This document shows positions 8,140 through 64,000 of a DNA stretch of 64,000 bases, piece by piece. The stretch is taken from positions 1,488,001 through 1,552,000 of the forward strand of contig JAUPFP010000045.1 of assembly GCA_036925085.1 (NCBI GenBank). Reading direction: 5' to 3'. The stretch is from Brachycybe producta (lineage: Eukaryota; Arthropoda; Diplopoda; Playtdesmida; Andrognathidae). How positions within the stretch are numbered: the first letter of the stretch is position 1; every line of letters begins with the position of its first letter. Position numbers and translations under genes: made by a program. The notes under the pieces were generated by a model. The model was not told where the DNA came from. It ran no database searches and saw only the letters and a program-made list of their open reading frames with translations.

Positions 8140-8243
8140 ATTCCGTTATTCATTGATTTATTTATCAGTATGACGTCACGCCCATAGAAATATGTAGAGG
8201 TGACGTCACACTGCTGAATAAATTGGTGAATAACAGAAAATGC
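8140..8243. mobile_element. Small MITE with two CRE palindromes, family 4
   Basis: It reads CACATTCCGTTATTCATTGA to the left and ATTGGTGAATAACAG to the right. The core has two TGACGTCA octamers at 8171-8178 and 8201-8208. A second copy with the same architecture lies at 26505-26612. Confidence 0.6.
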
Positions 8244-10321: not shown

Positions 10322-38329
<28,008 letters not shown>

Positions 38330-51995: not shown

Positions 51996-53950
51996 AGGTA
52001 TAAAAATATAAGAAAATGAAAAGCTAAATTTGAACAGCAATAGAGAAGTTCTTTGCAAGAAAAACTCCCATTTGCTTTTCACGTTGAAATTTGTATTGTG
52101 ATGCCAGCGATTGAAGTATTTAAAATTGCAGTTTTTTTTAATTCTTGGGCTTATTTTGTTTTATGAATTGTGTACTAAATTTAAATTATAATGTTAATTA
52201 TGTATTATTGTTAATTATGCTATTATGATTTAATTTTAATTATGAATTTTGTTTCTTTTCAGACTTGTCTGGTGTCAACTTTAACCTGTGTTAAATTAAA
52301 TGTTGTTGATATCGCGGGCTCTTCTCTATGAGATCTGAATTGAATGGAGGTGTTTTGTTCGCACCAATGAAGTTCAATTTCAGGGCATGTATTTAAATTA
52401 ACATTAAACTTAACATTGTGGACATTTTTTTATTAACTTTTGTAATATTAATTACTATGAACTTTTATGAACGAACGGTAAACGTGCAGAGCCGAAGACG
52501 TCACGGATAACAGCAAGTAGAATTTTTTTTTACCGATAACCAGAAGACTCACTGAAAGGCACCTTTCTAAAGGTTTAAATTAAAAAAATAAACACAAGCA
52601 GGTTTCTTCTGTGTTTCGGATGCATTTTCTTAAGAGCCCAGAGACCAGAGACATTCTTGCGTGGCTATATCCCGGTAGAATGGTTCGCACCCTAGAACCT
52701 TAATGGATTTTTTTTTCGTAATTTTCCGTTTTTGATTAATTTTTTACCTGACTTTTCCGATCTGAAATCGAATGACAGATTTGACATTTGTAACATTATC
52801 TGTTCTTCGATGAAGGTGAAGATATGAAGTTCAGTTTGCTTAAATTTAATCATTTTCTGCTACGTAAGAGTGCGCGTTGTCCGTTGTCCGTGTGTTGTCT
52901 CCCATATGTTGTCTTTGTGTACCGAGGTACTAACGGTGTTGAAGAGAGGAGGTGGAAAGTGGTGATAAGGCTCTGAATACACACTCCGGTCGTTGGTAGT
53001 TTTGGCCAAATGTGAAGCGTATACAGGGCGAGTGTTTGGCGGACCGACGGGCGAGCCTCTCACTCATCTTTTTTTCTTCTTATATAACTACCCGCAATCG
53101 CGTTTTTTTTTGTTTTGTTTTGTCTGTCCCTATGTACAATATAAAGTTTCATTGCACTATGAAACTTTACCAAACCGCACACCGCACCAGGTTGCATCCT
53201 CCTCACATGATGTCCGGATCCCAGCTTCAGTTGTGTGTTATTTGGTCACCTTAGTTGGAGGAAATCTTTTTTTAGTTGGTTTTTCTGATGTGGTATCTAG
53301 TGTTCCCAATAGATCCATGATTGAAAAACACTTAAAAACTTTGTTTGTTAATTTAAAGTTTGTGAAATGTGATTTGGTTGCATTTTTTCAAAACTTTAAA
53401 TTACTTTAAAAATTAACTTTAGTACTCCACACCCTTCCAACAGTAGATATTATAGATTTAGAATTATATATTTAACTAATTCTAGCTATAAATCTGACTG
53501 TTTACTAATATTTACTAGTTTTATTTATCTCTTGGTCTCGATTTGTGGCTCAGGTTTGTTTTATGTGACAAAAAACACGAGCTTTGTTATAAACACAATT
53601 GTTACATATTGGTGTGGGTTGGTCGCGTTTCATCGTCCTGTCAGGCCCCCTGTTAGGTGTTAGTGTTAGCGTTAGGATTGGTGGAATGGGTTGGAATCTT
53701 CGATCTTCGTTTCATTGTCTTTGTGATTGTCGCGTTTAACTTCAAACCGTCCTTTTTACAGGTTCTCGGCTCACGGTTTGAAGTTGAGAATGCGAAGGAC
53801 CAGGGTATCCTTCGTAGTCTCCTATATTTTTTTTTTACTAACACTTGTGAAATTTTGTGCAAAAAATTGTACAAATTCTGTTTTGAAATAATTGTGAATG
53901 CGATTGCAAAAAATGAATTGCGACAAAAAATGAATTTTCCCCAAAAAACA

Positions 53951-54158
53951 TTGTTGTGACAAAAAGAATTGTTGTGACAAAAAGAATTGTTGTGACAAAA
54001 AGAATTGTTGTGACAAAAAGAATTGTTGTGACAAAAAGAATTGTTGTGACAAAAAGAATTGTTGTGACAAAAAGAATTGTTGTGACAAAAAGAATTGTTG
54101 TGACAAAAAGAATTGTTGTGACAAAAAGAATTGTTGTGACAAAAAGAATTGTTGTGAC
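53951..54158 (+). repeat. 18-bp minisatellite, about 11.6 copies
   Basis: Tandem TTGTTGTGACAAAAAGAA units are identical across almost the whole array. Because 18 is a multiple of three, several frames stay open and encode hexapeptide repeats (VVTKRI on plus, FVTTIL on minus), but these are by-products. The flanking sequence (TTGCGACAAAAAATGAATTT) looks like the degenerate seed of the unit. Confidence 0.97.
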
Positions 54159-54394
54159 ATAATGCGTTGTTTTATTTTTTAATCGTTGTGTATAATTAAT
54201 TTGTATGTAACTTGTTTTGCCTTGCACGTAATTTTTTGTTTAGACTATTTTCAGATAAACAAATATACATTTTGTATAATCTTATTGTTTTGGTTTTATC
54301 CTGGATCTTACAAAATGAAGGTGTGCATTTTTGTTTCGTAAACATCCCATCTGGTTGCTAGAAACTGACTTACCTTTTTTCTCCATTTGTGTAG

Positions 54395-54513
54395 TGAATG
54401 GTTTGGTTCCTTAACTAGTTTTATAGTTGCTACTATTTGTATGCAACTCATCAGTGGGCCCAGGGATCATTATGCGATCTTTTCGGGTCTGGCACTCGTC
54501 ACCATTTTTGAAG
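54395..54513 (+). ncRNA. Repeated lncRNA exon A1
   Basis: Acceptor TTTTTCTCCATTTGTGTAG, donor GAAG|GTACAA. It contains the A-repeat core: CAACTCATCAGTGGGCCCAG, GATCTTTTCGGGTCTGGCA and TTTTTGAAG at the 3' end. Four further copies follow within 1.6 kb. Confidence 0.5.
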
Positions 54514-54723
54514 GTACAACTTTATTTCAATTGCATTATGGTCTTGTTTTTCACTTGCTCAATAAAAACAGCTGAAAGTAAACATTATTTTGATCAATTT
54601 TAAAATACCCTACAAATATATTATCTTTAAATAATCAACAAACAAAAATTTACTTTCAGGGCAAAGTGGAAAAGCGAAATTTTGGAAAATTAAACTGATC
54701 TTATGTTTTTTTTTTCTCTCTAG

Positions 54724-54792
54724 TTGCTCATCAGTGGACCCAGAGATACTTTTGTGATCTCTTCGGGTTTGGCATTTTCATCATTTTTAAAG
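54724..54792 (+). ncRNA. Repeated lncRNA exon A2
   Basis: Acceptor TTTTTTTTCTCTCTAG, donor AAAG|GTAGGC. Core CTCATCAGTGGACCCAGAGA and GATCTCTTCGGGTTTGGCA. At 69 nt it is the shortest A copy. Confidence 0.5.
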
Positions 54793-54956
54793 GTAGGCCT
54801 ACATTTTCAATAACTCGGTAGGATTCATTTCCATTAGGCACAAATTATTTAATTGAAATAATTAAATGTTAGGTTCCCCATTTATAAAACATAAATAATA
54901 ATGTAATGCTTATATTAAAATAAAATAAAAAATACTAAACTAAAATACTAAAAAAA

Positions 54957-55023
54957 ATTTAGTTGCAAAACGTTTGCAATTACGCCATTTTATGGTGTAA
55001 TTGCAAACGTTTTGCAACTAAAT
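54957..55023 (+). ncRNA. 31-bp near-perfect hairpin
   Basis: The arms (54957-54987 and 54993-55023) are fully complementary except for one G-U pair; the loop is only 5 nt. The left arm begins ATTTAGTTGCAAAACGTTTG. It lies in the intron between exons A2 and A3. It could be a small-RNA precursor or simply a tiny fold-back element; the very short loop and lack of mismatches favour the latter. Confidence 0.6.
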
Positions 55024-55226
55024 GCAGATTTAAATATATATAAATAAATAAATAAATATACATGAGGTGTGTAATTAACTATTTTAAGGTTCCAGTTCTA
55101 AACATGTGTAGAATCTTAAAATACTGGCTTAGTTTGGACAGATTTAAAAATAGGCCTAGTCTGATCAATTTCTGATTAAGTGGCTTTTTGGAACTTAGTT
55201 AAAATGAACTTTTATTGTTGTCTTAG

Positions 55227-55299
55227 TTAATCACCAGTGGGTTCAGAGGTCCAAATGGGAGATCTCTTCGGGTCTGGCATTTTCTTGTGGTTTTTGAAG
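55227..55299 (+). ncRNA. Repeated lncRNA exon A3
   Basis: Acceptor TTGTTGTCTTAG, donor GAAG|GTATAA. Core ATCACCAGTGGGTTCAGAGG and GATCTCTTCGGGTCTGGCA. One base longer in the middle than A4, so no shared reading frame. Confidence 0.55.
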
Positions 55300-55371
55300 G
55301 TATAATGCCATTTTAAATGACTTAATTAATATACTTTAACCATGTAATTAATGACCTGTTTTTTTTTTCAG

Positions 55372-55522
55372 CTTTCGAGGTTTTGTCCACAAAACTTAAC
55401 CTTCGTGGCTTCGATGTTTTTACTTGCCATACTAACTGCTTTTCAGAATCATTACAGGTCGTCAAGGCTGTGTAATATTGATTACAAATTCGTGTGCTTA
55501 GGGCTTTTCGTGTAAGAACAAG
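55372..55522 (+). ncRNA. Repeated lncRNA exon B1
   Basis: Acceptor TGTTTTTTTTTTCAG, donor CAAG|GTAAGT. 151 nt, starting CTTTCGAGGTTTTGTCCACA and containing CCATACTAACTGCTTTTCAG. Its second copy is B2 (55774-55918). Confidence 0.55.
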
Positions 55523-55590
55523 GTAAGTGGAATTTATACAAAAACTTCACATTTGTATTGTTTAAACTTAAAATAATTTTTTGTTTGCAG

Positions 55591-55696
55591 GAAATGAGTG
55601 AATTTCACTTTGAAAGTTGCAATGCAACTCACCAGTGGGCTCAGAGGTCCATATGGGGATCTCTTCGGGTCTGGCATTTTCTTATGGTTTTTGAAG
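55591..55696 (+). ncRNA. Repeated lncRNA exon A4
   Basis: Acceptor TTTTTTGTTTGCAG, donor GAAG|GTATAA. Begins GAAATGAGTGAATTTCACTT and carries the core CAACTCACCAGTGGGCTCAG plus GATCTCTTCGGGTCTGGCA. Confidence 0.55.
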
Positions 55697-55773
55697 GTAT
55701 AACACCATTTTAAATGACTTAAGTTATAGACTTTTAACTGTGTAATTAATGGCCTGTTTTTTTGTTTTTTCAG

Positions 55774-55918
55774 CTTTCGAGGTTTTGTCCACAAAACTTA
55801 ACCTTTGTTTCGATTTTTTTACCTTCCATACTAACTGCTTTTCAGAATCATTTCAGATTGTCAAAGTGGTGTAATATTGATTACAATTTCGTGGACTTGG
55901 GGCTTTTCTTGTAACAAG
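55774..55918 (+). ncRNA. Repeated lncRNA exon B2
   Basis: Acceptor TTTTTTTGTTTTTTCAG, donor CAAG|GTAAGC. 145 nt, about 85% identical to B1 by eye with small indels that are not multiples of three. Confidence 0.55.
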
Positions 55919-55982
55919 GTAAGCAGAATTTGTACAAAAACTTCACATTTGTATTTAAACTTAAACATTTTTTCGTTTGCAG

Positions 55983-56082
55983 GAAATGAGTAAATTTTAC
56001 TTCGTATGTTGGAATGCAACTCACCAGTGGGCCTAGAGGTCCAAATGGGTCTTCGAGGCTGGCGCTTTTCGTCGTTTGGAAG
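55983..56082 (+). ncRNA. Repeated lncRNA exon A5
   Basis: Acceptor TTTTTTCGTTTGCAG, donor GAAG|GTAATT. Begins GAAATGAGTAAATTTTACTT like A4; the core has a deletion in the middle (CCAAATGGGTCTTCGAGG). Confidence 0.5.
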
Positions 56083-56439
56083 GTAATTTTATTTAAAAAC
56101 TAATTGTGAAATGCAGAAATGATGTAAGCATCTGTTGAACTACTGACATGTCTTAAAACATAATTTGCATTTGAGTTCCTAAAAATCTCACTTGCACCTA
56201 GTTTTGAAGCGTAAGCACCTTGGCACACATACAACTTTGAGTTGTTGCCGAAACTGAACACTTTTGGTACACCGTAATACACTTAGTGTTTGAAAGTTGC
56301 CTGTACCATATTAAAAATGTCACCAGTCATGGGGGGGGGGGTTTCCAGACAGAGGTTTTACTCTTAAGTCGCCTATGTTATAGGGTTGGCATCTTTCTAT
56401 AGAAAATACATTGCAATGACACCACTGTGCCTCTACTTC

Positions 56440-56640
56440 TTTTTGTCATGTTGGGTATCTTTCAAAATACACTTTTTATTCAAACAAAAATTGAAACAAT
56501 AATTTGCTTTAAAGCTGTCATTTTCAAACTCAGTTTATTTTGAAAGATGAGTGTTTTGACACCTACCTTTTTAGTTTCCCAATTTTACACCTAAAAGACA
56601 GAATAATTCGAGAGGTGTTTACACTTTAAAAAACCACCTT
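56440..56640. repeat. Fold-back MITE, family 1, partial
   Basis: GGGTATCTTTCAAAATACAC, CAGTTTATTTTGAAAGATGA and CCTACCTTTTTAGTTTCC remain; the outer parts are lost. Confidence 0.55.
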
Positions 56641-57046
56641 GAATCTACTAAAATTTTGGAATTTGAAAAAACTAATTGGGATTTTTTTTTAAATATTTTT
56701 AGATGATTTTCGCCTGTGTAATATGAATATTTCTATTTACCAATGGGCCAAGATCACTCGCACTTAGTCATTTTCAAAGTAACTATTTAAAATGACTGAA
56801 TTCTAAAGAAAATGAAATTGATTCTAATGTTTTGAGTTTTTTTTTTCTTAAGCTTTAAGATTATTGGATACAATTGCTTGTTCAGGTCAACAAGAGAATA
56901 TACATCAGTTATTGTTGACCGTTATTTTCTAGTCATCCAGAGGAAGACTAACTAAACGGTAATGTACATGTATATATACGTCTACAACGGATCAGTTTGA
57001 ATTTTGAAGGTTCTTCACATTCATATTTCACGTTATTTTTTTTTAG

Positions 57047-57161
57047 AATTTCTTGGTTTGGTTTTGGTTTATTTTGGTCATTTGTTATGAATGAATGCAT
57101 ATCATTGCGTCCTGGAAGGGGACCACCTCTACGTTCTGTTCCTTCTGTTTTTTTCTGATGG
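57047..57161 (+). ncRNA. Candidate lncRNA exon before the hairpin-bearing intron
   Basis: Acceptor GTTATTTTTTTTTAG, donor GATGG|GTAAGT. It contains GCGTCCTGGAAGGGGACCAC and is GC-richer than its flanks. There is no clear relation to A or B. Confidence 0.4.
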
Positions 57162-59456
57162 GTAAGTTTTATAATAAGTTTATTAAATTTGTGTTTAAAA
57201 GCTTTCTTTATTCTTCTATTATCAGGTACTGTCTGTGACTTAACATTTAGTCTCTTTCACCTATTTGCTTACATGATGAACATACAAACTGTTTTCTGGG
57301 AGGCCACTTCGCATTTCATAACATGATTTCTTCTGGATCTTTTTTGGAGCCAAAATTGAACATATTCACAGCTGTCTTCCGCGGTTTTTTTTTTATAAAA
57401 GCTCTACTCTATAATGGCCATTTTATCTGCATCAAAGTAGGCTGGTTGAAATAATTTAATTATTTTTTAATTGATTTGAACTTTTGTGGGATTGTGTGGG
57501 GGGATTTGGGAGGGTTGTAAAAGGAATTCTTCGAATGCAACATTTGTACAAAGTAATTCGTTGAGTGTTATCCATTTGTTTCAATTTCTTCTCTGCCAAT
57601 TCTTTGAGACGATGATTTTATGCTACGAGGGGTGAAGGTGGACGCTACATATTAAGGGATTCCGAAATAACTTAGTTTTGAGTGTCGGTGCTACGAGTGC
57701 CGTGCAAACCCTCAGAATTACATTTCTAGCATTCAATGTATATGAAGCCTTTGCTAGCCTCCACCTACAAACCATGTGACAGAGGATACGGTTGTGCTCA
57801 ATAGAGGTTTGACAGCATTGATGAAATAGTCAGGAATGGAACACTTATTTGTGATGGTTTCGAATACATTTGCTAATTGTCGGTGGAATTGCTGCTGCTT
57901 GGATAGTTAATTTCTTTGTTAATTTGCGAATTGGCAATTAACATACTTAAGTATCAATAATTAAGTGGGTGGAGGGGATAATTAAGGTTGAGGTGGTGTG
58001 GTGCACACTACTAATTTATTCTTTAACTTAATCTTTTCTTTGCTTTGTCTTTATGTTAATAGTGGGGGAGTTGAATTAGTTAAAGAATAGTAGTAACACT
58101 TAAAAATCATAAACAAAACAGTTGAAAACACACTAATAATTTTTCTTTCTGAACATTGTTTCGTTTTTCGTGGTCGTCTTAAATTGTGAATGTTTTTTTC
58201 TGGCTGCGTAAAATTGCGAATGGCAATAAAAATGAGAGGAATTCTAAAAGGGTTAGCTGGTATTGGGGCATTAATGTGGACGTGTTTGGATTGGGTAAAA
58301 CGTGGATGTGTTTGATATGTGATCGGATGGTAGTTGTGGGCAAGATGGTTGTGGGTTGTTAAGCTCAGTGTCCACATGCAAGGATTATTGACACCTCGAG
58401 CAGACCAGTTTAAATTTTAATGGCACCATTTTTAGTGGCACCAGTTTACGGTTCCACAGGCATTGATGTGCTTATAGAAATACTTTCAATTGAATTTTTC
58501 CTAATGATGGGCACCACAAAAGTACACTTGCCATGTACTTTTAATGGTTCAATGATTAATGATGCCAGTGGTGTGGAAACCCTTCATGGTTTTAAATTTT
58601 GGAATCCTTTTTATGATTGATTTTTTTTGGTTGTTTTAAAGAGGTTTTTCAACATTTTCTACTTCCTGTTATGATCAGCTGTTATGAAGTATTAATTAAT
58701 GCAGAATAGTCTTTTTTCTGTGTGTGGAGCTTTTTCAATACAGGTTTTTAATGTTGTATTGGCACAACTATGGTGTGTGTGGTGATGGGTTTTGTGAACT
58801 TGTTAAATTACTCTGTAAGCAGCCGAGAAGGCTTGTTGCAGTGGGACTAAAGTCCAATTGAAGCATGTGAAATGCATTTCATGGAGAAAGGGAAAGTATT
58901 ATTGGCTGTTTTTTTCCAGATTTAATGCTAGATTCAAAACTGTTTCTTAAAATAAAGTGAAGCTAAAACTATTAAGTCTAGAGAGCTTTTAAGTTTCACT
59001 TCGACTTAAGTAACATTTTAGAATTTGACCATTAAGTCATGATTTAGTCAAATTTTATTTGTTACTCTGAATAATTGACTTACAGACTGTCTTAGTGTTA
59101 TTCTTATGGGAAGTTAAAGTTGCCCATTAAAAATAGCAGGAAAGATTACCTGTAAATTTTTCATTGTGAAGTGATCTCTTGTTGTTTCTTGTTGGAATAA
59201 TTTAAGATATTTAAGTTGTGAAGATAGCAGCATACCCTATGGGAGACTGTTATGCTTTTTACTCTTAAAAGGATAGTTTAAATAGCATGCCATTCTTCTG
59301 GGGATAATGTTTGTTGCCTAAAAATAGGCTGTTATTAGTGTAAACTGTGAATACAATAAGTTCTGTTGAATTAAGAAACAGAATTAGATGTGTTGATGGT
59401 GTTAATATAATTTAAATTTACTCTCCGTAGTGTGAAATTCAATGGTACAGACAAAA

Positions 59457-59510
59457 ATCTTCCTGTTATCCTAATGGGATGTATTAATACCCATTGGGAT
59501 AGCAGGAGAT
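59457..59510 (+). ncRNA. Candidate microRNA precursor hairpin, unit 1
   Basis: The 5' arm 59457-59478 (ATCTTCCTGTTATCCTAATG then GG) pairs with the 3' arm 59490-59510 (CCCATTGGGATAGCAGGAGA then T). That gives 21 pairs, two of them G-U, and one single-base bulge; the loop is 11 nt. Both arms are identical to those of unit 3, while the loop differs at two positions. Size, bulge and arm-over-loop conservation fit a pre-miRNA. I do not recognise a known mature miRNA. Strand is assumed from the surrounding plus-strand exons. Confidence 0.6.
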
Positions 59511-59872
59511 AGCCTGTACATTGATAAATAATTTAACTATTATTCCGATAAAAGATGTGTTTTGTTGCTTTTTGGAATAATGTTGCAATTTTGTAGCCTT
59601 GATTAGTTTGATAATCTAAGCTATAAAGTTGTGTTTGTGAGATTAGTTCAGCTTATGTTTTGCTTTTTTCACTTAAAAGATAGTGAAAATAGCATACCAT
59701 AGTCTGAAGTTAATGATAGTTAGCTGGACGTGTGAATACCTTAGCTAACAGAATTTAATAGGTTTTGAGCTGTTTGTATAATTTGTTTTTTTATGGTTCG
59801 AATTTATGGAAACCTGGAAATACAAATTTTATTATTGAACTAGTTTTGTTGTGCAAATTAAATGATGTAACT

Positions 59873-59926
59873 ATCTTCCTGGTATCCTAATGGGACGTAT
59901 TATTGCTCATTAGTTTAGCAAGAAAT
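59873..59926 (+). ncRNA. Diverged hairpin copy, unit 2
   Basis: The 5' arm is almost unchanged (one substitution, TCCTGGTATCC) but the 3' arm (CTCATTAGTTTAGCAAGAAA) has diverged, so the stem has several mismatches. It lies exactly 234 bp before unit 3. It is either a decayed paralog or one with altered processing. Confidence 0.4.
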
Positions 59927-60106
59927 CAACCTGCATCTAACTAATTTCACTATTCCTAATTAGATGGTTTTCTTGCTTTTTGGAATAGCACATTTTTGTA
60001 GCTTTGATTAGTTGATAATCTAAGCTATAAAGCTGTATTTGTTTTCCTATGGTTCGAATTTATTAAAAACCTCGTGAATTAGTTTGTGTAAACAAATAAT
60101 ACAGAT

Positions 60107-60160
60107 ATCTTCCTGTTATCCTAATGGGATGTGTTAATGCCCATTGGGATAGCAGGAGAT
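60107..60160 (+). ncRNA. Candidate microRNA precursor hairpin, unit 3
   Basis: The same two arms as unit 1 (60107-60128 and 60140-60160) without a single change; loop ATGTGTTAATG instead of ATGTATTAATA. The stem is 21 bp with one bulge and two G-U pairs. Confidence 0.6.
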
Positions 60161-60340
60161 CAACCTGTATCTTTAACTAATTTAACTATTCTAATCAATT
60201 TTTTTGCGTTTTGGAATAGCACAATTTTGTAGCTTTGATTAGTTGATAATCTAAGCTATAAAGTTGTATTTGTTTTCTATGGTTCGAATTTATTAGAAAC
60301 CTGATGAAATAGTTGATGTAATTAAATGATGCAAACAAAT

Positions 60341-60399
60341 ATCTTCCTGTGTTATCTATCCTAATGAGACTTCATTGTCCATTCGTTTAGCATGAGAGA
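60341..60399 (+). ncRNA. Diverged hairpin copy, unit 4
   Basis: It starts ATCTTCCTGT like the others, with a small insertion (GTTATCTATCCTAATGAG) and a diverged 3' part CCATTCGTTTAGCATGAGAG. Stem poor. Spaced 234 bp from unit 3. Confidence 0.35.
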
Positions 60400-62086
60400 A
60401 ACCCGTGTTTTTGAAAACTTACTCTAATGAGATGTTATTAGAATTGATACTATTGTGACATCAACTTATGTTGTATTGTTTTTATTTTACACAAATTAGT
60501 GTATCGTTTGACCGATTAATTCAGTATTATACGAATTGTTTTTTGTTCAATGATTATGTATGTTTGGGCTCAAAACAATGGTTTGTTTTGATGGGTTTAC
60601 CGAAATATTTTTCTGGGTATTCTAGTGGGAGATTGCATATTGTTGGGTTCACAATAATTACTGCAGAAGTGTAGTTTGAGTGATTTTTCATTAACCAACA
60701 AAGGGTGCGGATATAAATTGGTTCCCAAATTTCTACAGTCTGCTGTATACATATGGTGTTTTCTATTTCTACTTCTACTAATTTTGTGCATTTTTTTTCT
60801 GGGTGAGGGGGGGGGGGGAACATTTCTTGATCTGATCAAGTTGTGATTTATGCGAGGTGGGTTGAATTTGTGATGAATTTTTGGTTTTTTTTTTAATGAG
60901 ATACTTAAAATTACGACAAGATTTTGGGGTTGTTTGCAAACGGCGTTTACTGCGTTTGGTATCTTTGTGTAATGTGTTTTTGTTCATTTTTGTCCTGTTT
61001 TATTCTAACTAAACATTACACACATACACCTTTATAACACAGTAGAGTGGGAAACAGACAATAAGCATTGTGCCATGTGTAGACTACTTATTTTCTTTCT
61101 ACTGTCTAAATCTTATTAATTACATTAATTTGTCCGGGTTGGGAGATTTATTCTTAGCTGGAGTATCGCTAGTATTGTTTAGTTTGTGTAATAACTGTCA
61201 TAAAATGGCGTTATTACAAATCCATGTTGATGTCTACAATTTATTCTAGTAAGACATAAAATATGGCATTTTTTAGCATGCCGTCTATATACATTGACAA
61301 TTTGCAATTGTGTTACGGAATTCTTTTATACTTTGCTATTACCTTCATTGAAATTTAATTGCAAATTTTTAATTTGTAATTAGATTTTGATTAAATTGTG
61401 TTTAATTTTTTTATTCAATTATGTGTGTAATTAATGTCAATATTTAATGTAAATCATAAATTAAAAAAATTAAATTTCTTAATTTTTTGTCATTTTCGAA
61501 ATTGTCCTAATTAAATTAAATGTTTGTTTTTACGTGTCTCTCCTATAAATGTCTTAATCTTCTACCAGAGTAGGGATGATAATGTCAGCATGAAAAATAC
61601 CCTCAGGTGATTGAGTTTCCCTTCTAATTTCTAAAACGCTTTCTCAATTTTTTTTTTCCTGAAAAACAAGACAATTGGTGTTTTAAAATCAGCTGGTCAT
61701 AAACCCATCTTACGATGTAAAAAATATAATCCTACTTCACGTTTGGTTTTAATCGTTAATTGTCGTAAAGTCCATGACATTGGGTAATTTTTTATTATTG
61801 TATTCAGGTAGTTTGTATAATTGATTCTTTTTATGAAGATATTAGTTAAGGACATTGCCTGCAGTGTCACTGTTTGAACCTTGACGCCTTCTATATTATC
61901 TAGTGCCATGGCTTTTGGGAGGACTGGACACAAATGTGCTGTAAAATAAGCAGTATAGGAACTGTGGTTTGATTATGCATTACGGCCGTCTAGCTCGTGT
62001 TTGTTCTCACTAAAAACGTACAAAGGCACAGGAGTAAAGATACGTTTTAAAGTATTACATTAAAAACTTTGCATTTATTATTGCAG

Positions 62087-62202
62087 GTACACAAGTGGAG
62101 GGGAATAATGATTGCCATTTCTGTACACATATGTGGATCAGAGTTGGAATTGGAGCTACAAAGTTGATGAAACACAAAAAGAGAAATGGAAATCGAACTG
62201 TG
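62087..62202 (+). ncRNA. Candidate downstream exon, 116 nt
   Basis: Acceptor GCATTTATTATTGCAG, donor ACTGTG|GTGAGT. One frame is open throughout (GNNDCHFCTHMWIRVGIG), so a coding exon cannot be excluded, but no neighbouring exon continues that frame recognisably. Confidence 0.4.
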
Positions 62203-64000
62203 GTGAGTTAAGTTTCCATTAGACTGCAAGTAAGTTTAGTGTCATGTTTTGGAGAATGGGTTTTAAAACCGTCTGACCTGGAATGATGCTTTGCTAGGTT
62301 CTAAGAAGGAAAAAATAGCCTTTAAATCGAAAAGTCGAGCAATTGGCTTCTTGAAGGAATTAGTCGGTTTCTACGTGTGACAATTGTTTTTATAAAAAAA
62401 ATATAGTCCTACATTTTATGCAAATATAAAATAAACCCCAAACAATGCAGTAAATTTGTTTTTATGCAAATAATAAAAATGTTTATTAAAAAACAAAATC
62501 GCAACATTTGTAGGAATGCGCAGGTGTGGCTTCGTTTTGTAGGGAAAAAGTATCTAGGACAAATGTCACCCACTCCAGTATGTATTTCTCAGGCCTGTAT
62601 TTCATGATGTGAACAAGGGCCTTAAGTATACTTTACTACCAAGTTACAGTCGTTAAGGTTTTATGTTATGTAGGTTTGATGTTTTATTTTCTAATAATTA
62701 CATACACTAAAATGACTTGGTTTTCCACATTTGTTGTGGCAAGTGCAACATGTGTGCTGGTATTTTGAGAAGATGCTAGAAAAACATGTTAACAATCATT
62801 TGCCTGAATGGTTTTTAAGTGCGCAAATGGTTCTTATTATAAGATGATGTCTTGGTGTAATGGATATTACAAGTAGAGTTTTTATGATGGTTGTTGCACA
62901 CACTAGTTTTTTTTTTCAATTTAGGTTTGTTTTTCTACATTTCTATAGTTGATGAAACTATTAAGTGTACACAGAAGGATCTATAGTGATATAGAGAAGT
63001 TTTGTTTGATTGTTCGGGTTCGAATTGGGAATTTACGAGAGATTCTTCTATTGTTGAGAGAAAATTAAGATTGAACTTTCGTCTTTTTCAATGTTTTCGC
63101 CTACAGTCTTCGTGTGCACTTGTAATTAGATTCCCGCATTTTTTTGTTCCTTTCATCAAGAAATCTCTAGATGAAGGGTCTCTCTGAAAACCTGATTCAT
63201 TAATCAGATATCAAGTGTTACAAGGGTGTGGTTGCTCATTGCTCATATTATATAGAACTAAGATAGATGGTGGTTATGTCTTATTACATTGCGTAGGAAT
63301 TAGTATATTTCTACATATTGTTGCCGCTGAATAAGCGCCAGATTGAACAAAAAATACCAAATGGAAAAAATTACCGCTCATCTATTTTTAATTTTATTAA
63401 AAGTACTGGTATCAGAAATAGGAATCAATTTAGCCTTTTAGCTTTAACTTGTGTTAGTTAAATAGGTGCAATGTGAGCGCGAATGCGCCAAACGCGCTCA
63501 ATAAGGAACAGTTTACATAGGAGGAGGCTAAAATGAACCAAAATATTTTCAAACATAACTCAAATGAAGCTTTTTATGTGACTTTCAAAATGACCGTAGT
63601 TTATTTTGAAAAATATCAGCTGCATGAAAATAACCTTAAGTGAATTGACATACCCTTCTAGTTTCTAAATTCTTAGTTTTGCACCTTTCGGAGGATTTTT
63701 TCACTTTAAAAAACCACCTTAAAGTTGACTTCAACTATGGTTACATTTTCGTCACTTCTCCTTTTATTTCAAATTTATTTTTATCTTTACATACATTTCT
63801 CCTATATTCATCATTAGGGCTCGGATTTTTATGCAATTTCATGCAAATGTTTCTCAATCTGTGGACCCAAGTGCTAAGTAGCAATCCCGATTAGATCAAC
63901 CAACAATTATAATTTTTTTAAATAAAAATGGTTAGAGGCTAGAACTCTTAGTTGACAACTGATGGCACCCACAGGTACCTAGTCTCCTTCTAAACCAATC
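62203..64000. other. Right-hand end, no gene recognised
   Basis: AT-rich sequence with a partial family 1 fold-back at about 63520-63730 and a family 2 MITE cut by the window edge from 63816. A short plus-strand ORF at 63002-63187 has no supporting feature. Confidence 0.5.
63816..64000. mobile_element. Fold-back MITE, family 2, truncated by window end
   Basis: It starts AGGGCTCGGATTTTTATGCA and continues ATGCAAATGTTTCTCAATCT, GATTAGATCAACCAACAATT and GTTAGAGGCTAGAACTC as in the complete copies. Confidence 0.8.

Follow-up and report, generated by a model that had tools for sequence, protein, structure and literature searches.

Tandem RNA hairpin modules in a predicted intron of a candidate multi-copy family of non-coding, apparently spliced RNA genes in Brachycybe producta

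The stretch of DNA analysed here (hereafter the window) is 64,000 nucleotides long and lies on contig C45; the whole genome, 295 Mb in 442 contigs, was searched. Its COX1 gene has an open frame when translated with the invertebrate mitochondrial code, which marks the organism as an invertebrate and, by resemblance, an arthropod. Minus-strand frames of the window match C2 domains above cut-off and Ferlin_C just below it (26.8 vs 29.4 bits), which together place a ferlin-like gene upstream. The plus strand carries a strongly conserved block, a first tandem array of exon-like units, and a predicted intron that holds a second tandem array, made of RNA-like hairpins (Table 1).

Table 1. Positions of the features in the window, with the evidence for each.
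Feature	Position	Strand	Evidence and remarks
Most conserved block of the family	52263..54270 (right end approximate)	+	Boundary alignment of 6 loci; preceded by TTTTCAG
Pair of neighbouring hairpins (stems of 12-13 bp and about 9 bp)	53738..53815	+	Compensatory changes in 13 aligned loci
18-bp minisatellite, 12 nearly perfect copies	53942..54159	+	TRF; inside the conserved block
First tandem array, five exon-like units	54441..56082	+	Sequence, 6-locus alignment, whole-genome matches
Predicted intron holding the hairpin array	56083..61157	+	Donor and acceptor read from sequence
Hairpin A, unit 0	59089..59144	+	nhmmer and fold
Hairpin A, unit 1	59457..59510	+	21 bp, 1-nt bulge; z -7.62; 0 mismatches in 21 pairs
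Hairpin A, unit 2	59873..59926	+	Class marked by two mismatches at the centre, U-U and C-U; 16/21 pairs
Hairpin A, unit 3	60107..60160	+	z -7.05; 0 mismatches in 21 pairs
Hairpin A, unit 4	60341..60398	+	6-nt insertion in 5' arm; 15/21 pairs, insertion excluded; z -1.1
Hairpin B, first module	59537..59581	+	11-bp stem; alifold of 7 loci, arm/loop identity
Hairpin B, later copies	about 59950-59988, 60186-60219	+	Read from sequence
Hairpin C, first module	59584..59633	+	17 matches, at least 1 in each of 9 loci examined
Hairpin C, later copies	about 59991-60038, 60222-60269	+	z -5.4 for the 60215-60275 copy
Hairpin D	59651..59702	+	Weaker; alifold structure has just 6 pairs

The sequence immediately before the conserved block resembles a 3' splice site. 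The best-conserved part of the host gene spans 52501-54000, with 0.81-0.98 matches per 100 nt. The two hairpins inside it show C-G to G-C exchanges between subfamilies and a G-C to A-U exchange in C24, and the alignment shows that paralogues carry repeats related to the minisatellite. The block was also considered as a protein-coding sequence, a reading rejected, one stretch apart, on account of frame-breaking indels (in 52600-53830, 104 of the 114 indels that separate five copies from that of the window have lengths not divisible by 3) and the lack of a steady period of 3 in 120-nt windows. No large reading frame common to all copies was found. We note that an open stretch of 146 codons at 52969-53409 has 32/33/71 substitutions by codon position, and this third-position excess, which is not fully explained, would by itself suggest coding.

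The exon-like units of the first array start near 54441, 54722, 55226, 55622, and 56014. The unit at 54722 has a preceding AG and a following GT in all six aligned loci. Another exon-like type, near 55780-55920, lacks its donor in C44 and has an unclear one in C24. Short open frames can be recognized by eye in the units near 55.2-55.9 kb. The predicted donor at 56083 reads GGT in 6/6 loci with variable neighbouring bases, and the predicted acceptor ending at 61157 reads TTAG/CTG in 6/6. With this donor and acceptor the hairpin array would sit in an intron, and both the intron position, as a prediction, and the non-coding context proposed in the preliminary description agree with our analysis. 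The window's strongest hairpin, at 54961-55020 between exon-like units, is a foldback of 28 bp that has a single G-U pair, a 3-nt loop, and a folding energy of -42.8 kcal/mol; it is single-copy in the genome search and thus no obvious MITE. The motif GGTTCGAA could conceivably be tRNA-like, judging from its sequence.

The window copy belongs to a dispersed family. Pairwise comparison reveals a colinear unit of ~9 kb, whose left limit is the splice-acceptor-like site (52262) and whose right limit is near 61.5 kb. With the hairpin array as DNA query, we obtained at least 13 matches, located in the window and eight other places, and the conserved block as query detected at least seven strong loci, including the window, and at least six more distant ones. 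A search with the first array added C21, and a 20-base core of the hairpin A 5' arm, at 3 mismatches, was the only query that added C88. The family thus occupies at least 16 dispersed places including the window, where C88 is counted from the 20-base pattern only. These counts are lower bounds, since the searches score best candidates only. Full arrays were read in the window and 8 loci, and parts of C2, C29 (twice), C11, and C1 near 3.99 Mb were read as well; C21 and C88 are counted from their matches alone. With the 20-base core as query, all 19 matches with up to 2 mismatches in the whole genome fall in family loci, and the 13 matches with 3 mismatches comprise eight in known family loci, the one in C88, and four elsewhere; a reversed control pattern gave 9 matches. 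Copies are 67-89% identical over the main pieces and up to 94% identical over the conserved block, and none was seen to be near-identical. Their composition varies. In the stretch read of the C8 copy near 88 kb, both arrays are present and the conserved block is absent; in about 10 kb read of C2, no hairpin A was found at E<1, though the conserved block and the first array are present.

The preliminary description reported four related hairpin units spaced 416, 234, and 234 bp apart. We find all four at these spacings, and a fifth, overlooked one upstream (unit 0). Refolding also agrees with what was described for units 1 and 3. Each of these 54-nt units folds at -32 kcal/mol into a stem of 21 pairs that includes two G-U pairs and has a 1-nt bulge in its 5' strand; none of 200 dinucleotide shuffles folds equally well. 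The two units differ by two bases in 54, both within the loop, so that their arms are identical, and they rank 4th and 5th among the non-overlapping hairpins of the window (60-nt windows, 64 kb, both strands). Units 0, 2, and 4 fold weakly, with z of -1.3, -2.4, and -1.1. The loss of pairing proposed for units 2 and 4 needs correction, as 16 and 15 of the 21 pairs, respectively, are still present. The tandem cluster is real, but decay is not a sufficient description of unit 2. The central U-U and C-U mismatches of unit 2 are common to its counterparts at C23, C8b, C44, C7, and C8a, so that the unit-2 class is found at its array position in six loci, the window included, and the counterparts in the five other loci fold with z of -3.8 to -6.4. 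The shape of unit 2 is therefore old and shared. Unit 0 also has counterparts, at C23, C8b, and C8a, with z of -4.0, -2.8, and -3.7.

To build a set of hairpin A copies, we used 34 plus-strand nhmmer matches of at least 20 bits in 9 loci; three weaker plus-strand matches (<20 bits) and one type-B hairpin in C7 were left out, giving 33 copies. All are built on a frame of 21 pairs and have 8-15-nt loops, and 26 of the 33 have z below -3. The 21-pair structure of units 1 and 3 was applied to the 33 copies (693 cells) and compared with 500 shuffles; the automatic structure of model R1, with 11 pairs only, was set aside. Because the copies are related, a relatedness that the shuffles leave in place, and the structure was taken from two of them, the following figures are support rather than probabilities: 86.4% of cells are paired vs 83.8 after shuffling, pairs changed on both sides number 9 of 21 vs 4.6, and cells changed on both sides number 19 vs 7.2 (sd 2.3). 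The covariation score is 0.174 vs 0.133 for shuffled copies and at most 0.093 with a slid partner, a comparison in which the structure derived from units 1 and 3 is biased against the slid versions. Further pair types are ordinary (24 vs 21.6, a value reached by 61 of the 500 shuffles). There are 78 G-U cells vs 18 A-C cells among the 693, and this excess suggests that the RNA is most likely read from the plus strand. The window hairpins are real, and selection appears to maintain them as RNA structure. Long non-coding RNAs rarely have enough relatives to reveal structure-preserving change; here, many diverged copies in one genome make selection on RNA folding measurable and allow paralogues to be compared module by module.

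Conservation along the hairpin follows a pattern that was described before for units 1 and 3, where the arms are conserved over the loop. The pattern is real, and it reaches well beyond that pair, to 33 copies of 9 loci, with mean ungapped identities of 0.80 in the 5' arm, 0.70 in the 3' arm, and 0.45 in the loop; those of the flanks, 0.39 and 0.36, are understated since gaps were disallowed. Inside one orthologous class the contrast can be weak, as in class b (arms 0.92 and 0.94, loop 0.87). Gapped identities in a module aligned over seven loci (arm/loop/arm) are 0.78/0.60/0.85 for the unit-1 class and 0.94/0.84/0.85 for the unit-2 class, in which the loop nearly equals the 3' arm. The leading arm varies with the set: it is the 5' arm over the 33 copies and the 3' arm in the unit-1 class of the seven-locus module.

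Hairpin A is not the only conserved hairpin of this module. The corresponding values are 0.83/0.72/0.93 for hairpin B, 0.87/0.63/0.90 for hairpin C, and 0.64/0.61/0.77 for hairpin D, with spacers at 0.31-0.63. The module averages 0.87 in paired columns and 0.72 in unpaired ones; 672 of 709 cells are paired, and compensation is seen in 4 of 103 pairs. All 12 whole-genome matches of hairpin C lie inside family loci. As hairpins B and C also have arms conserved over loops, the pattern marks structured RNA generally and not, as the preliminary description had it, a mature small RNA in particular; by itself it is insufficient to identify a microRNA. Among paralogues of an animal microRNA, the seed block is expected to be conserved above the rest of the arm. 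We looked for such a peak in the 5' arm of hairpin A and found none, all 17 seven-base blocks being at 0.85-0.93.

We tentatively favour the explanation, with a probability of roughly 0.45, that the array consists of tandem RNA hairpin modules (A, B, C, and the weaker D) in a large family of non-coding RNA genes that is multi-copy and apparently spliced. The hairpins, their copies, the compensatory changes, the plus-strand bias, and the frame-breaking indels can be read directly from the DNA; from them we infer a transcript, its splicing, and any function. As the likeliest mechanism, the hairpins would be structured modules of a long transcript, serving as repeated protein-binding or folding elements, and array copies would be gained and lost through tandem duplication. 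Tandem structured repeats are thought to act as such elements in Xist or roX. This explanation accounts for the retention of hairpins A, B, and C together with the upstream-block hairpins. Points against it are the missing hairpin A in the part of C2 read, the missing donor of one exon-like type in C44, the ordinary number of further pair types, and the well-conserved loop of the unit-2 class. Should the array really be intronic, moreover, it would be lost from the mature RNA, which favours precursors of small RNAs.

A polycistronic microRNA cluster, in which hairpin A and perhaps hairpin C would be excised from an intron in a non-coding host transcript, is a quite plausible alternative, if also short of an even chance, and the two readings are close. 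The frame of 21 pairs, the small loop, and the predicted intron are all explained by it; many hairpin A copies also have basal pairing beneath the stem. The order of conservation over all copies (5' arm, 3' arm, loop) is also in line with it, and clustered copies have a precedent in a spider, where, as described in PMC4987109, the mir-3791 family of Parasteatoda has 34 copies, 13 of them within one 50-kb locus. Criteria for animal microRNAs, as given in Table 1 of PMC12594335, include at most 7 duplex mismatches, no asymmetric bulge >3 nt, both products of 20-26 nt with a 2-nt 3' overhang, and at least 10 reads with 75% precision. Counted over the whole 21-pair stem, 32 of 33 copies have no more than 7 mismatches; in the three units considered, the bulge is 1 nt in units 1 and 3 and unit 4 has the 6-nt insertion; and the arm length of 21-23 nt suits the product size. 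Hairpin A is compatible with a microRNA. Its 5' arm lacks a seed peak, however, its stems vary by compensation among paralogues, and hairpin B, equally conserved, is with 11 bp far too short for a microRNA. Nor does hairpin A match Rfam at gathering score. This is true of the whole window (0 matches), in keeping with the earlier remark that no known family was recognized. At low stringency, 52000-62500 gave 14 sub-threshold matches, including only mir-991 for hairpin A (opposite strand, E 4.1) and mir-143 for hairpin C (E 0.0096 and 0.24, 26.4 and 21.7 bits vs a gathering score of 60); no snoRNA family was among the matches in the window or at low stringency in this region. The only rox1 match (E 1.7) lies on an unrelated foldback.

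The other explanations are much less probable. The ~9-kb unit could be a non-autonomous mobile element with the hairpins as its parts, given its many dispersed places and the lack of a large reading frame common to all copies, but the ends of the copies and the absence of long terminal repeats make this unlikely. A splice-acceptor-like site forms the left edge, and the sequence shared by closely related copies continues beyond it; the right ends are ragged, and the raggedness leaves no defined sites for target-site duplications; comparison of the ends of five copies gave only matches of at most 24 bp, and neither the terminal repeats nor the sharp common ends expected of a transposable element were found. 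The absence of near-identical copies and the compensated stems also argue against it. The preliminary description held that many copies with transposon-like borders would speak against its proposal; many copies there are, but the tests run found no such borders. It is still less likely that the palindromes act as DNA, as a binding site or a cruciform: units 1 and 3 are near-perfect inverted repeats, but the asymmetry between G-U and A-C cells is unexpected for a DNA palindrome. Least probable of all is a lack of function, in which case units 1 and 3 would stem from recent duplication or gene conversion and their pairing would be due to chance. Two differences in 54 bases and the poor folding of the other three window units fit this idea, whereas the high rank of units 1 and 3 in the window and the retention of hairpins, with compensation, in 9 loci despite the diverged spacers do not.

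Host genes of snoRNAs and microRNAs carry small RNAs in introns. The family described here is similar in having repeated hairpin units within the predicted intron of a non-coding gene and differs from snoRNA hosts in that no snoRNA family is among the Rfam matches. Arthropod clustered microRNAs such as mir-3791 of Parasteatoda and mir-71/mir-2 (PMC4987109) have tandem copies, dispersed duplicate clusters, and conserved arms alike; the present family, in contrast, has no seed peak in the 5' arm, is known from sequence alone, includes equally conserved hairpins that are too short, and has a host gene that is itself multi-copy and structured. Repeated structured modules of a long non-coding transcript, here a predicted one, would be shared with Xist and roX. 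The anatomy that resembles them (tandem hairpins, upstream compensated hairpins, exon-like units) is read from sequence, and the family differs in its 16 dispersed loci, with a putative transcript and a putative chromatin role, if any.

Taken further, the copies may represent about 16 undescribed dispersed long non-coding RNA genes with structured modules, acting jointly as a multi-copy regulatory RNA system that might also release lineage-specific microRNAs; we regard this broader proposal as possible but rather doubtful. Each gene would have a conserved 5' block and tandem exon-like units, with an intronic hairpin array in most copies read. Clustered hairpins and structured long RNAs are known kinds, and a dispersed family this large with measurable structural selection is new as far as we can tell. 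No description of this family was found in the open literature within the terms searched, which is weak evidence.

Other repeats and matches were seen in the window and the genome. At 24310-24635 lies an array in which repeats of 15 bp and 30-32 bp, based on TTTGCCCTAAAG and the complement of this sequence, occur in both orientations. Two related hairpins on TGTGACGTCACA-like palindromes, at 26527-26586 and 8155-8214, are possibly small foldback elements. Further COX1-like matches at C1 12697416 and C17 4028172 lie on large contigs and are probably nuclear copies of mitochondrial DNA.
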